A stretch of 64,000 nt of DNA from Spirosoma aureum (lineage in GTDB: Bacteria > Bacteroidota > Bacteroidia > Cytophagales > Spirosomataceae): contig NZ_CP050063.1 of NCBI RefSeq assembly GCF_011604685.1, positions 7,419,001 to 7,483,000 of the forward strand, given 5' to 3'. Numbering within the stretch: position 1 is the first letter of the stretch; each line of letters starts with the position of its first letter. A program made the translations under genes and the position numbers. The notes below the pieces were generated by a model. It was not told the origin of the DNA. It worked only from the letters and a program-made list of their open reading frames with translations, and did not search any database. This document shows, one piece after another, positions 44,222 through 48,703 of this stretch.

Positions 44222-44413
44222 TTAGATAGTTGCCAAATCCATTTCATGAGTTATAAATCTACTTTCTATAACTCTTTTGAAATTCGTGTATTTCATCTTT
44301 TAGTATGATATGGTTCATCAAGTACCATGACAGTAGTTTCAAACACCTAGAATTTTGAGTCGGTGTCTATTTATTTCGAAAAATGATTCTTCACGTTAAA
44401 GTATGGAGTGCCG

Positions 44414-44437
44414 TCTCAAATAGGAGCGATCATGAGA
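44414..44437 (+). repeat. Dispersed hairpin repeat, copy 2
   Basis: TCTCAAATAGGAGCGATCATGAGA: arms TCTCA and TGAGA around TAGGAGC, same plan as the copies at 52858 and 54813. Intergenic, about 150 bases before the riboswitch. Confidence 0.55.
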
Positions 44438-44567
44438 TTTTGTAAAGTGCGGGTTACAAACCAGCTGACCAGACAGAATTAAAAACCCAGTTGACTGAAA
44501 TGGCAAGAACTATTATTTTTGTCGTGTAGTTGCTTACACTCCCTTTGCAAGGGGAATTCTCAAACTA

Positions 44568-44613
44568 GGAGGACGACCTCCCCCATAATGGGATTCCGGT
44601 TCGGGACGGCCCG
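44568..44613 (+). promoter_or_regulatory. Guanidine-II (mini-ykkC) riboswitch
   Basis: Two short hairpins with ACGR tetraloops in tandem: GGAGG-ACGA-CCTCC (44568-44581) and CGGG-ACGG-CCCG (44602-44613), separated by a 20-base linker. The GGACGACC and GGACGGCC loop-closing patterns are the defining feature of the guanidine-II class, in which two loops pair and bind guanidinium. It ends 20 bases before the ATG of a Gdx-type SMR transporter, the classic target. Guanidinium would stabilise the loop-loop pairing and free the translation start. Confidence 0.88.
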
Positions 44614-44632
44614 CCCTAACCAGGTCAATGCC

Positions 44633-44950
44633 ATGTCTTGGATCTATCTCGTGTTTGCTGGCCTATTGGAAGTCGTTTGGGCCTATTCTATGAAGCAGTC
44701 CGCGGGTTTTACCCGCCCTGTTCCCTCCTTAATTACTGCTGTTACCCTACTGGCTAGCTTTGGCCTGCTAGCTCTGGCTATGCGTACCCTACCCTTAGGA
44801 ACAGCTTACACGATTTGGACAGGTATCGGAGCGATTGGCGCTTTCCTGCTTGGCATCTTCGTGCTCGGCGAACCGGTCAACATGACCCGTATACTCGCTG
44901 CTTTGCTGATCGTCACGGGGCTTGTCCTGATGAAACTTTCTTCCCATTAA
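44633..44950 (+). CDS. gdx: Guanidinium exporter, SMR family (Gdx/SugE)
   Basis: Start at 44633 (MSWIYLVFAGLLEVVWAYSM): the frame is open further upstream, but that part is the riboswitch. 105 residues, four membrane helices. Glu13 in GLLEVVWA is the central proton/substrate-binding residue of SMR proteins. The W-A-x-x-M-K-x-S-x-G-F pattern and GTAYTIWTGIGAIGAFLLGI mark the Gdx/SugE branch rather than EmrE. It would export guanidinium in exchange for protons as an antiparallel dimer. Regulation by the riboswitch above is strongly indicated. The truncated acetyltransferase starts 12 bases downstream. Confidence 0.93.
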   Translation: MSWIYLVFAGLLEVVWAYSMKQSAGFTRPVPSLITAVTLLASFGLLALAMRTLPLGTAYTIWTGIGAIGAFLLGIFVLGEPVNMTRILAALLIVTGLVLMKLSSH

Positions 44951-44961
44951 AACTAACCCTA

Positions 44962-45279
44962 ATGGGTATGGATACAATCACGATTCGGAAAGCCACACTG
45001 GACGATGTGGCCACGGTTCAACAAATTGGACGAGAAACCTTCTTCGAAACCTTTGCTGCTGCCAATACCCAAGCCGACATGCAAACGTATCTAAAAGAGA
45101 ATTTTAGCCATGCGAAAGTTTCGGCAGAATTGAGTAATCCTGATTCACTGTTCTACATTGCCTGGGAAGGCCAAATGCCCATTGGTTATTTAAAGGTCAA
45201 CACGGGCCAGATCCAGACCGAGCTACAGGATGAAACCGCCCTTGAAATTGATGTGATGATGAAAAAAGTGTTGGACTAG
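44962..45279 (+). pseudogene. C-terminally truncated GNAT acetyltransferase
   Basis: Start ATG 44962 (MGMDTITIRKATLDDVATVQ). 105 residues cover only the first half of a GNAT domain: the beta1-alpha1 start, TFFETFAAANTQADMQTYLK, SLFYIAWEGQMPIGYLKVNT and ALEID, where relatives continue with the acetyl-CoA loop (Q/R-x-x-G-x-G/A). That loop is missing; the chain ends VMMKKVLD. It is probably co-transcribed with gdx but unlikely to be active. Confidence 0.65.
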
Positions 45280-45658
45280 CGTTTCTCATTCACACGACAA
45301 GCGGGAAGCAAACAAGTAATCTCAATAAACGCCCGAATACGGATTCATCCTATGAAAGCGATTTATGAGAGGAAGTAACTTTGAGTGACAACGTTATAAT
45401 AAGCCCCCTTTTCGCCATTTTTATCATGAAATAACGTAGGTTGTTTATAACCACGCTTTTGTCCATTTATCCGAATTCTTACCCCTGACGGCCTTATCCT
45501 GTATTCAGCAGTAACCGTCCAATCATGGACAGCGTGTTGTCCGTTTCTGGACAGATTCAACAACCATTACCTTGTTTAAAGCCCGTTAAAAGGCATTTTC
45601 AATTTCGGCATCTTATTTGATCTAAGATATTGTATCTAATTAAACCAGATAACCTCCC
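45280..45658. promoter_or_regulatory. Control region before the PadR-permease operon
   Basis: No gene is called (a 66-residue minus-strand frame at 45363-45563 is not convincing). Two TGGACAG copies (45526-45532 and 45548-45554) flank a TGTCC (45538-45542). Nearer the start lies GATCTAAGATATTGTATCTA, a near-dyad with ATCTAAGATA and TGTATCTAAT halves that may be the PadR operator. Confidence 0.4.
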
Positions 45659-45997
45659 ATGAAAAAGACGGTATTGGGAGAACTCGAAGAACTGGTGCTA
45701 CTGGTGGTGGCCGCCAGTACCGAGGATGTATATGGCGTACCCGTCCTGGAAGAGCTCCAACGGCAGACCGGGCGCAGCTTCACCATCAGCGCCGTGCACA
45801 CCACCCTGTACCGACTCGAAGAAAAAGGCTTTCTGGCCTCCTCAGTAGGCGGAGCCACGGCCGAGCGAGGAGGCCGCAGCAAGCGGCTGTTTGCCCTGAC
45901 GGCCGAAGGAGGAAACGTCCTGCGGGAGATTCAGCAAATGCGCACTCGACTCTGGCAGGCCATTCCAGAGGGTAAGTTTCAACTGTTAGGCCTATAA
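45659..45997 (+). CDS. PadR-family transcriptional regulator
   Basis: A 112-residue winged-helix regulator: LGELEELVLLVVAASTEDVY, YGVPVLEELQRQTGRSFTIS, AVHTTLYRLEEKGFLASSVG, and GGRSKRLFALTAEGGNVLRE, the standard PadR order, with a short C-terminal dimerisation helix. It lies 15 bases ahead of a large ABC permease with a matching prefix domain, a common Bacteroidota pairing in which PadR controls the permease. The dyad just upstream is its likely site. Confidence 0.92.
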   Translation: MKKTVLGELEELVLLVVAASTEDVYGVPVLEELQRQTGRSFTISAVHTTLYRLEEKGFLASSVGGATAERGGRSKRLFALTAEGGNVLREIQQMRTRLWQAIPEGKFQLLGL

Positions 45998-46012: not shown

Positions 46013-48703
46013 ATGGCTCGAAAGCTTCCTTCTACTCAACCTGAACGCTCCTCACCGCCCCGCTGGGCCGATTGGCTCTTGAGGTGGTTCGTAGCTCCCC
46101 ACTTGCTGGAGTACCTGCAGGGCGATTTGCATGAGCTATTCCACAAGCGTAGTCAGCAGGTAAGCCGGGCGCAGGCCCGAAGCGAGTATGTCTGGGCGGT
46201 GTTGCAATGTCTGACTCCGTTTTTCCATAACTCGCTCCGTGAGCGTGATCAATACTATTCGCAATACCTTAAACCAACCAATACGACGATGCTGCGGAAC
46301 TTTTTGAAAATTGCCTGGCGGAATTTAATGTTAAATAAAGCCTTTACAGCTATCAATATGGTGGGGTTAGCCATAGGGTTGACTTGTTTCATGCTCATCG
46401 CGGTGTTTGTCGACAATGAACTGAGTTTTGACAAATACCCCACCGATGCCAAAAACATCTACCGAGTACAGGTATCGGTAGCTGGCAATGGCGATGTGGT
46501 TGTTTACCCCAATGTCGATGCGGGGGTGGGCAAGGGCATACAAGGGGCGTTTCCCGAAGTGAAAGCCTCGACAAGGTTTATGCCTGTTAGCGACTATATT
46601 CAGTATAAAGAAAATCAGTTTAAGGAAGCACACCTGGCTTTTGCCGATTCCAATTTTCTGTCACTGTTTTCGATTTCATTCCTCAAAGGGAATGCGGCAA
46701 GGGCTCTGATAGCGCCCAATAGTATTGTTATTTCGAAAGCGTTTGCCCAGAAATATTTTGGTAATGAAGAACCGATAGGGAAGTCCCTGGCAGTGGGTAC
46801 ACAACGGACAGCATTTACTGTGACGGGAGTTATCGATAAAGTACCCGACAATTCACACTTTCATACCGATGCATTTCTAAGCTTATCGACCCATCATATT
46901 GCCAATCCGACCTGGAGCAACGTTGGTTTTTATACGTATCTGGAACTGAACGACAAAGCCGATCCGAAAAAACTGGAAGCGAAATTTCCACAACTGGTGG
47001 CCAAATACGTGGTGCCGGAAGTACAGCGGGATATGGGCGTTAGCCTGGCCCAGGCTCAGAAATCGGTCGAAACATTTCGATTTTCATTACAACCGCTTAC
47101 CGATATTCATCTGTACTCAAATACAAAGTATGAACTGGAGCCGAATGGCGATATTAAATATGTGTATATTTTCTCCGCGTTGGCGCTGTTTATTCTGTTA
47201 CTGGCCTGCATCAACTTTACCAACCTCTCGACTGCACAAGCGGCAAAACGTTCCCGGGAAGTAGGGATTCGGAAGGTGATGGGGTCGATCAAGAATCAGA
47301 TCGTTTTCCAGTTTCTGACCGAATCGATCCTGCTGACACTGCTGGCAATGGTGTGTGCCTATGGCTTGTTGTTCCTGCTATTACCCTATTTCGATCAGGT
47401 GGCCAATAAACAGATCAGCTTCTCTTTCTTTCTGAGTTATCAGTCTATTCTCACCCTCTTTCTGGCGAGCTTATTATCGGGTATACTGGCGGGAGCTTAT
47501 CCGGCATTTTTCCTGTCGTCGTTCAGCATTATTAACACATTGAAAGGCGCATTTTTTGGAAATAGCTCACAGAAAAAACCGCTGCATAGTGGGTTGATTG
47601 TATTCCAGTTTTCAATTTCGACCATCCTGTTGATTGCTACCATCGTCGTCTATAAGCAGTTGCAGTACATGCAGACTAAAAAGCTGGGTTACGATAAAGA
47701 CCAGGTGATTGCCCTGCCCGATACCCGTTTACTAGGTGCTAAGCAACTGGCTTTTAAAGAGCAACTGGCGCAGAACTCACATGTTGTTGCGGCCAGCCTG
47801 TCGCGATATACGCCGGGTGGAAATATGATGGACGGGACGCAGATTTACCCGAAAAACGAAACCTCGAACGGTGCCGAGATTCACGCCAATATTTTTCACG
47901 TTGACTATGATTACCTGCACACCCTGGGTATACAAGTGGTACAGGGGCGAAATTTCTCCCGAGACTTTCCGACTGATACAATTTCGGGCGTGCTTATCAA
48001 TGAATCGGCGGTTCATGAGCTAGGATGGAAAGGGACCAATCCTATCGGTAAGTCGGTGGTTCGTTCGGGAAATCAGGAGTTTAAGATCATCGGTGTCGTT
48101 AAGGATTTCAATTATGTATCAGTCAAGCAGAAAGTGGCTCCACTCATGCTGCTAATGGGCCAAAATGCGGGCGGTATGGTGCTGAAAATCAAAACCACGG
48201 ATGTGCCTGGGTTTCTGGCCGATCTGAAGACCCAATGGGAGGCTTTTAGCCCAAACGGACCGCTTGAGTACCACTTTTTGGACGAACAGTTTGCCACCTT
48301 TTATGCCAGCGAACAACGCACCCAGCAGTTATTCTCAGCCTTTGCGTTGCTTGCCGTTATAATTGCCAGTCTTGGGTTGTTTGCACTGTCGGCCTTCGTC
48401 ATTGAGCAGCGTACCAAAGAAATCGGTATTCGTAAAGTGATGGGGGCTTCCGTACCGGGTATTGTGCAATTGCTAGTAAAGGACTTTGTCCGGCTGGTTT
48501 TTATTGCCGTTGTGATTGCCTCGCCTATTGCCTGGTATGCCATGCATCACTGGTTGCAGGATTTTGCTTATCGGATCGAGGTCGAATGGTGGATGTTAGC
48601 ACTTTCAGGTCTAATAGCCCTCACCATTGCCTTGCTGACGGTTAGTTACCAAAGTATCAAAGCGGCCTTGATGAATCCCGTGAAGAGCTTACGAAGAGAA
48701 TAA
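46013..48703 (+). CDS. MacB/FtsX ABC permease with PadR-linked prefix domain
   Basis: An 896-residue permease. Residues 1-95 form the prefix domain seen in permeases next to PadR genes (PPRWADWLLRWFVAPHLLEY, LQGDLHELFHKRSQQVSRAQ). From about residue 95 the chain is a double MacB_PCD/FtsX permease: NFLKIAWRNLMLNKAFTAIN, the periplasmic sandwich, EVGIRKVMGSIKNQIVFQFL, a second sandwich, and EIGIRKVMGASVPGIVQLLV near the end. It is related to, but not the same as, the permease at 40728. No ATPase gene is adjacent. A rho-independent terminator follows at 48916. Confidence 0.92.
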   Translation: MARKLPSTQPERSSPPRWADWLLRWFVAPHLLEYLQGDLHELFHKRSQQVSRAQARSEYVWAVLQCLTPFFHNSLRERDQYYSQYLKPTNTTMLRNFLKIAWRNLMLNKAFTAINMVGLAIGLTCFMLIAVFVDNELSFDKYPTDAKNIYRVQVSVAGNGDVVVYPNVDAGVGKGIQGAFPEVKASTRFMPVSDYIQYKENQFKEAHLAFADSNFLSLFSISFLKGNAARALIAPNSIVISKAFAQKYFGNEEPIGKSLAVGTQRTAFTVTGVIDKVPDNSHFHTDAFLSLSTHHIANPTWSNVGFYTYLELNDKADPKKLEAKFPQLVAKYVVPEVQRDMGVSLAQAQKSVETFRFSLQPLTDIHLYSNTKYELEPNGDIKYVYIFSALALFILLLACINFTNLSTAQAAKRSREVGIRKVMGSIKNQIVFQFLTESILLTLLAMVCAYGLLFLLLPYFDQVANKQISFSFFLSYQSILTLFLASLLSGILAGAYPAFFLSSFSIINTLKGAFFGNSSQKKPLHSGLIVFQFSISTILLIATIVVYKQLQYMQTKKLGYDKDQVIALPDTRLLGAKQLAFKEQLAQNSHVVAASLSRYTPGGNMMDGTQIYPKNETSNGAEIHANIFHVDYDYLHTLGIQVVQGRNFSRDFPTDTISGVLINESAVHELGWKGTNPIGKSVVRSGNQEFKIIGVVKDFNYVSVKQKVAPLMLLMGQNAGGMVLKIKTTDVPGFLADLKTQWEAFSPNGPLEYHFLDEQFATFYASEQRTQQLFSAFALLAVIIASLGLFALSAFVIEQRTKEIGIRKVMGASVPGIVQLLVKDFVRLVFIAVVIASPIAWYAMHHWLQDFAYRIEVEWWMLALSGLIALTIALLTVSYQSIKAALMNPVKSLRRE

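Follow-up and report, generated by a model that had tools for sequence, protein, structure and literature searches.

Guanidine-II riboswitches before gdx in Spirosoma aureum and its family, with a predicted pairing at the start codon

In the Bacteroidota family that contains Spirosoma, a guanidine-II riboswitch before gdx, the gene for a predicted guanidinium exporter, is the rule: an aptamer of this class lies directly upstream of 42 of the 45 Gdx-type genes in 222 genomes of the family. The class, the gene and the pairing of the two were already known, and what appears to be new is this spread before gdx in the Spirosoma family. The example described here lies in a 64-kb stretch of the Spirosoma aureum genome, which we call the window; its features are collected in Table 1. 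A sequence-only reading of the window had taken two hairpins ahead of an SMR gene for a guanidine-II riboswitch in front of a Gdx exporter. The observation is confirmed, and that interpretation is supported. Because the window leader has no GGAG, its switching probably differs from the model drawn for E. coli.

The aptamer and its gene in the window

The aptamer spans positions 44568-44613. Both hairpins, P1 and P2, have an ACGR loop (ACGA and ACGG) and GG/CC closing pairs, just as the sequence-only reading had described them, and the 20 nt between them (44582-44601) fall inside the range of 7-40 nt reported for guanidine-II linkers (PMC7544219). P2 ends 19 nt before the ATG of gdx at 44633, where the earlier estimate had been about 20 bases; members of the class stand before genes for guanidine export or metabolism, and here the gene is that of a predicted exporter. 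The 5' arm of P1 (44567-44572) reads AGGAGG, a perfect Shine-Dalgarno sequence that is too remote from the ATG and presumably meaningless here.

Table 1. Features of the gdx leader and the adjoining genes, in positions of the window
Feature	Position	Strand	Basis or comment
P1 hairpin, guanidine-II stem-loop 1	44568..44581	+	GGAGG-ACGA-CCTCC; read from the sequence and the RF01068 match
Linker hairpin, CCCA-TAA-TGGG	44582..44592	+	88.2% of cells paired in 36 aligned leaders
Proposed anti-start strand (5' arm and loop of P2), ligand-free state	44599..44610	+	predicted to pair with 44630-44643
P2 hairpin, guanidine-II stem-loop 2	44602..44613	+	CGGG-ACGG-CCCG; read from the sequence and the RF01068 match
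P3 spacer hairpin, P2 to ATG	44613..44626	+	79.8% of cells paired; 3 of 5 pairs changed on both sides
Start-codon region proposed to be sequestered, GCC-AU-GUCUUGGAU	44630..44643	+	predicted
gdx (sugE), predicted guanidinium exporter, SMR family, 105 aa	44633..44950, including stop	+	profile and structure-sequence matches
PaiA-like GNAT acetyltransferase remnant	44968..45279	+	17 nt after gdx; family named from the homologue in L022

The window has one copy of the paired core motif, written GGACGRCC-N12-40-GGACGRCC, and 100 shuffles of the window gave none. The 8.9-Mb genome as a whole likewise has a single copy, against three of the reversed control; at that scale the bare pattern carries no significance, and the case rests on the covariance score and on conservation. 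A permissive scan of 44400-44800 with the Rfam model RF01068 gave 31.3 bits (E 1.3e-4) over the full model (1-48). This is 0.7 bits below the curated cut-off, the gathering threshold of 32 bits, which is why a scan of the window at that threshold returned no match. Of the outcomes named as refuting the sequence-only reading, those open to computation did not occur. The covariance model matches, and it does so above the cut-off at gdx leaders in 26 of 222 family genomes (32.2-39.7 bits), but the window itself falls short. Scores below the cut-off are common with this model, since only 9 of 18 outside gdx leaders expected to match it reach the cut-off at that place. L014, the closest relative, scores 30.9 bits. 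Genome-wide, the window locus is the sole match at E ≤ 0.001 (E 6.8e-4; 150 of 402 candidates scored) and again at E ≤ 0.1 (54 of 384 candidates scored), while no match to guanidine-I was found elsewhere in the genome at E ≤ 0.1. A covariance model of our own, R1, built from 37 family sequences, gives the window aptamer 71.4 bits, the window sequence having been part of its training set. We regard the identity of the aptamer as a guanidine-II riboswitch as nearly certain; by analogy with the class, the window RNA would bind guanidinium and bring P1 and P2 into a kissing contact.

The gene downstream is of the Gdx type. Glu13 and the motif WAYSMKQSAGF, both singled out in the sequence-only reading, are present in the 105-aa reading frame. 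The SugE model NF008512 scores 121.3 bits on the protein, for which the NCBIfam cut-off is 126, a value exceeded in 14 of the 222 family genomes. Among solved structures, the best chains by sequence are 8vxu and 6wk5 at 103-105 bits, against 52-56 bits for EmrE entries; 6wk5 and 6WK9 share one sequence, and 6WK9 is Gdx-Clo (PMC9574504). The window protein is thus an SMR protein like Gdx-Clo (PDB 6WK5, 6WK9 and others), nearer to the guanidinium exporters than to EmrE/Qac, with the central Glu and the Gly-X-Gly of the subtype. It has Glu13, Trp16, Tyr59, Trp62 and Gly64-Ile-Gly66 in common with E. coli Gdx (b4148), to which it is 55% identical, and export of guanidinium is predicted from this likeness.

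Conservation across the Spirosoma family

The family sample consisted of 222 genomes (Spirosoma, Dyadobacter, Larkinella and others), the family being a genome-based grouping; in the NCBI taxonomy Spirosoma and Siphonobacter belong to Cytophagaceae, and Runella to Spirosomataceae. A SugE/Gdx protein model found 45 genes at 110-131 bits in these genomes, followed by a gap down to 96 bits or less. Together with the NF008512 score, the ranking of solved structures and the conserved residues, this gap upholds the assignment of the window gene to the Gdx type. Thirty-six of the 42 aptamers were found by Rfam, 35 of them at E ≤ 0.01 and one (L016) only at E 0.03, and the other six by R1, where they scored 48-71 bits although they were not in its training set. 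Neither Rfam nor R1 found an aptamer before the remaining three Gdx-type genes (L057, L065 and L076). By comparison, none of 19 non-Gdx SMR genes, a sample of many such matches in the family, was preceded by an aptamer, the one match among them being a chance one of 5.4 bits. This difference between the Gdx-type genes and their sampled paralogues settles the question of guanidine-II identity.

Over all 222 genomes, RF01068 at E ≤ 0.01 marks 37 places, spread over 36 genomes. All but one of these places directly precede a Gdx gene, which in one case (L018) is frameshifted. The exception, L037, is a false positive due to GC-rich tandem repeats whose GGACGGC units imitate the aptamer; an RF01068 match away from gdx in L017 is likewise spurious. 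The 43 leaders considered below are the 42 together with the frameshifted copy L018, and L017 and L037, which have no gdx, are left out of all leader counts. L003, which has a long insertion, is out of alignment A2; the folding tests include the six R1 leaders, which A1 and A2 do not contain; and L018 is left out of the tree and of the synonymous-recoding test.

The position of the aptamer is fixed. Every one of the 43 leaders runs into a start of the form ATG-[Ser/Ala/Pro]-Trp (Ser in 33, Ala in 9, Pro in 1), and the distance from the end of the P2 core to the ATG is 19-26 nt in 42 of them and 69 nt in L003, so that the aptamer marks the start codon, as had been claimed for the window. The homologous leaders also keep their ACGR loops, the loss of which would have spoken against the earlier reading, with few exceptions: AACGR in P1 of three leaders and ACGC in P2 of one. 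The three (L046, L048 and L072) have one base over the tetraloop of the class and are loci that RF01068 misses; the same P1 loop is seen in Afipia (L153, L169, L199) and Acinetobacter (L171, L187, L190, L197, L202). The leader with the ACGC loop, L071, has an intact gdx downstream. L003 has three additional P2-like hairpins (at about 1549-1600; loops AAGA, ATGA and AAGA) in the stretch from P2 to the ATG, which look like decayed copies of a duplicated P2. One genome carries two copies of the aptamer-gdx-GNAT arrangement, of which L034 is intact and the second, L018, has a frameshifted gdx and a truncated GNAT gene.

In 36 aligned leaders, 98.9% of the cells of P1 are paired, with one cell changed on both sides, and 98.6% of those of P2. 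In the linker hairpin, both partners have changed at two of the pairs (CTC..GAG in L007 and L035). Its pattern, CCC-N3-7-GGG, occurs in 38 of the 43 family linkers and is absent in E. coli; because it also occurs in 26 of 42 outside linkers, the hairpin is not lineage-specific, and we rejected the idea that it is a Bacteroidota invention. P3 is weak in the window genome and clearer in relatives. A transcription terminator platform was rejected as well, no terminator-like hairpin having been found within 44300-45400.

Guanidine-II riboswitches are reported to occur mostly in Proteobacteria (PMC12186494), and the window had accordingly been called a notable example from the Cytophagales. The order is right for the closest named relative, the Gdx of Spirosoma endophyticum (91% identity, among the best 80 of 473 relatives), but the example is not an isolated one. 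Further riboswitch-bearing records come from Larkinella, Fibrella, Dyadobacter and Runella. We found no description of guanidine-II in the Spirosoma family in the literature that was available (PMC7266159, PMC5486947, PMC7544219, PMC9300104, PMC9094411, PMC12186494).

Shine-Dalgarno sequences and pairing at the start codon

The closest known system is the guanidine-II leader of E. coli gdx/sugE (RF01068), which has the same two ACGR hairpins with GG/CC closure, a linker of 7-40 nt and the same place directly before gdx; like it, the window leader is likely to be a translational ON switch. The window leader differs in its CCC..GGG linker hairpin, in a score just below the Rfam cut-off and in its lack of GGAG, which leaves no anti-Shine-Dalgarno step of the E. 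coli kind. That step is part of the mechanism proposed for E. coli and does not define the aptamer class. In the published model the linker contains an anti-Shine-Dalgarno, and kissing of P1 and P2 frees the Shine-Dalgarno sequence (PMC9300104, PMC9094411, PMC12186494).

That the same platform operates in the family, a linker anti-Shine-Dalgarno pairing with a Shine-Dalgarno sequence before gdx until guanidinium-driven kissing exposes it, is quite improbable. It is the E. coli model (PMC9300104, PMC9094411), CCTCCCCC, the 3' arm of P1 together with the linker, would make a good anti-Shine-Dalgarno, and most outside relatives do carry the site: GGAG is found at -20 to -4 in 59 of 68 outside leaders, which come from the best 80 of 473 relatives. 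None of the 43 family leaders has GGAG there, however. Under the looser rule of AGGA, GGAG or GAGG the counts are 4 of 43 in the family and 65 of 68 outside; with AAGG also allowed they are 15 of 43 and 67 of 68; and the mean duplex energy with the anti-Shine-Dalgarno is -2.6 kcal/mol in the family versus -8.1 kcal/mol outside. When the long reading frames of the window are started at their first ATG, Shine-Dalgarno sequences are not enriched before them (1 of 28, against 2 of 28 in a control stretch); for E. coli sequence treated alike, the counts were 6 of 15 and 0 of 15. Bacteroidia ribosomes are reported not to recognise Shine-Dalgarno sequences, with initiation depending, among other factors, on a start region that is little structured, and some ribosomal-protein genes of the class are said to carry strong sites (PMC9976891, on Bacteroidia other than Spirosoma). 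The family leaders are in keeping with that report, and because GGAG is missing throughout and the ribosomes of the class are reported to ignore such sites, the published model does not fit and the sequence gives no support to a Shine-Dalgarno/anti-Shine-Dalgarno platform, in the window or in the rest of the family. The leaders of Janthinobacterium (L151, L159, L183, L193) make the difference plain: their P1, linker hairpin and P2 are almost as in the window, and the Gdx of L151 is 73% identical to that of the window, but AAGGAG stands before the ATG, where the family has no GGAG.

We propose gating of the start codon instead. Guanidinium would bind the ACGR loops of P1 and P2, the loops would kiss, and P2 would be held as a hairpin; in the ligand-free state the 5' arm and loop of P2 would pair around the ATG, and the ribosome would be blocked from starting. 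P2 and the start-codon helix are mutually exclusive, and therefore a ligand that stabilises P2 should free the start. Guanidinium would in this way turn gdx translation ON, and the exporter would then remove it.

Several results of folding point to this pairing. In the minimum-energy fold of the window leader, 44598-44610 are paired with 44630-44644, and the same start-codon helix comes out unprompted when RNAalifold is run on 16 leaders. Across 36 leaders the helix is standard-paired in 90.7% of cells; it is mostly invariant, so that covariation says little about it. The pairing probability exceeds 0.5 in 27 of 43 leaders when 33 nt of coding sequence are folded, and in 33 of 43 (a fraction of 0.767) with a shorter coding stretch. 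In 33 of 42 leaders the natural sequence pairs more than its synonymous recodings do on average (0.73 versus 0.49, Wilcoxon 7e-6).

Other results speak against it. If P2 is forced, mean accessibility rises only from 0.43 to 0.51 for the start region and from 0.61 to 0.62 for the AUG, and the pairing drops only modestly, from 0.73 to 0.65 (p 0.02), when coding starts are swapped between leaders. The window leader pairs its start codon with a probability of 0.97 when 24 nt of coding sequence are included and of 0.20 with 33 nt, and its fold is not better than that of shuffles (z -0.76; 42 of 200 shuffles were at least as stable). Six of the nine Ala2 leaders stay below 0.5 in both computations, as do L006 and L039 with Ser2. 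The bias at the second codon is weak as proof of pairing, Ser2 being TCT or TCC in 6 of 7 Gdx genes without an aptamer as well, and for the match between the loop base R and the base two before the ATG, A faces U in 7 of 7 cases, too few to count. Nor is the pairing unique to the family: the mean over 68 outside leaders is 0.51 versus 0.73 in the family, E. coli gdx reaches 0.54, and in other lineages L043 has 0.87 and L044 has 0.00. Because E. coli and the outside leaders pair too, the helix may be just a by-product of the loop GGAC and the Met-Ser-Trp codons. The start-codon pairing is a prediction, then, with statistics that are moderate and partly contrary, and we infer both it and the direction of switching from folding.

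Weighing these results, we think it on balance probable that guanidine-II controls gdx translation through start-codon gating, as an ON switch that was acquired from Pseudomonadota and whose Shine-Dalgarno sequence was lost. It is rather unlikely that the aptamer is functional but acts on mRNA decay, on transcription elongation or through another structure in translation, the start-codon pairing being incidental. The unevenness of the pairing (27 of 43 leaders, and the low values with Ala2), its occurrence in E. coli and the comparison with shuffles would all agree with such an incidental role; against this reading stand the missing terminator and the spacing of 19-26 nt between P2 and ATG, which suits translational control.

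It is highly improbable that the leader is a decaying relic in the window genome, slipped below the Rfam cut-off and no longer responsive. The shortfall against 32 bits is real, and the adjoining acetyltransferase gene is itself broken, but both loops, the closing pairs and gdx are intact, the score of L014 is similar, and the family model R1, trained with the window included, scores the aptamer high. As for GC-rich hairpins arisen by chance, with no riboswitch at all, the narrowly missed cut-off, the spurious matches elsewhere (L017, L037 and a repeat array, L045) and the reversed control might suggest them; the probability is practically nil, the pattern being absent from the shuffled windows and the reading already refuted by the conservation at Gdx-type genes as against sampled paralogues.

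Origin, neighbouring genes and significance

Among the best 80 of 473 relatives, nine belong to the family; the other 71, with identities of 66-78%, are by their titles nearly all Pseudomonadota. Upstream of 68 of these 71 there is at least one GGACGRCC core, and 42 of the 68 have two. We built a tree of 106 of 166 proteins (38 of the 71 outside rows plus E. coli, 16 of 30 from other lineages of the phylum, 6 of the 19 non-Gdx SMR proteins and all 45 family Gdx), with rows picked at random apart from E. coli, L043 and L044. One branch (starred, 96) unites the 45 family Gdx with 39 outside proteins, 38 from Pseudomonadota including E. coli and one unassigned, and excludes the 16 Gdx from other lineages of the phylum; the search was a quick one over 106 columns, which the program flags as few, and the outside rows had been chosen by similarity. 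The family Gdx do not form one clade in this tree: three changes are needed, one of them forced by supported branches. Equally close proteins occur in Adhaeribacter (Hymenobacteraceae, 76%) and in a Chitinophagaceae bin (77%). Because the closest outside named Gdx among the best 80 of 473 relatives are mostly proteobacterial and share a branch with the family, the simplest reading is that the riboswitch-gene pair was probably acquired horizontally from Pseudomonadota. On this proposal, gene and switch reached the Spirosoma family together, and the Shine-Dalgarno sequence would have been lost there because Bacteroidia ribosomes do not read it. The fuller account, in which the pair crossed into a Shine-Dalgarno-blind lineage, lost that sequence and kept switching through an aptamer arm that gates the start, is one that we offer tentatively, as possible though short of probable.

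Outside the family but within the phylum, Gdx matches at E ≤ 1e-28 were found in 74 of 296 drawn genomes, all but the window's own labelled outside its class, and guanidine-II precedes gdx in two such lineages (L043 and L044). RF01068 matched in 4 of the 395 genomes of the phylum draw, namely the window's, L043, L044 and L045, the last of which was rejected as a repeat array. In the class draw (395 genomes), R1 found the window genome and two weak matches of 21.8 and 21.9 bits, which sit inside reading frames of 484 and 73 aa; both draws used stricter filters that lose weak matches. Among the outside loci, Afipia birgiae (L153) has a second guanidine-II match (987-1033; 36.4 bits, above the cut-off) about 1 kb before gdx, besides its AACGR-type leader right at gdx. 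The linker between the hairpins exceeds 40 nt in Acinetobacter L197, L190 and L202 and is near 100 nt in L197. In Comamonas aquatica (L146) a xanthine (NMT1) riboswitch match above the cut-off lies at 68-130, about 1.9 kb from gdx.

Of the PaiA-like GNAT gene that follows gdx in the window, roughly the 95 N-terminal residues are left, followed by a short stretch similar to the C-terminus; about 70 internal residues are missing, and the remnant has no Pfam match of its own. A complete copy follows gdx in 12 other loci (for example L004, L022 and L033), 11 with the aptamer and one, L076, without it, and it is broken in two loci, the window and L018; unlinked homologues are many in the family. 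The window remnant is a probable former operon partner of gdx, and since complete copies follow gdx in those 12 loci, gdx and GNAT seem to form a guanidine-regulated operon in some of the family. Guanidine-IV offers a likeness, being a guanidine riboswitch with an N-acetyltransferase (GNAT) gene reported under its likely control (PMC9788692); it is another riboswitch class, and the PaiA-like GNAT accompanies gdx in some relatives of the window, where it is broken. Further along the window lie a PadR-like regulator (45659-45997) and, after it, a large permease-like reading frame (46013-48703) whose translation, read by eye, looks to be of the FtsX/MacB type.

The regular presence of guanidine-II ahead of gdx in a family of Bacteroidota suggests that its members produce guanidine or encounter it. 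With 43 of 43 leaders lacking GGAG, the family is also a natural test of translational riboswitches where the ribosome ignores that signal. If the proposed gating is true, one aptamer would serve two rules of ribosome loading, and pairing at the start codon may be an overlooked second gate in E. coli as well.
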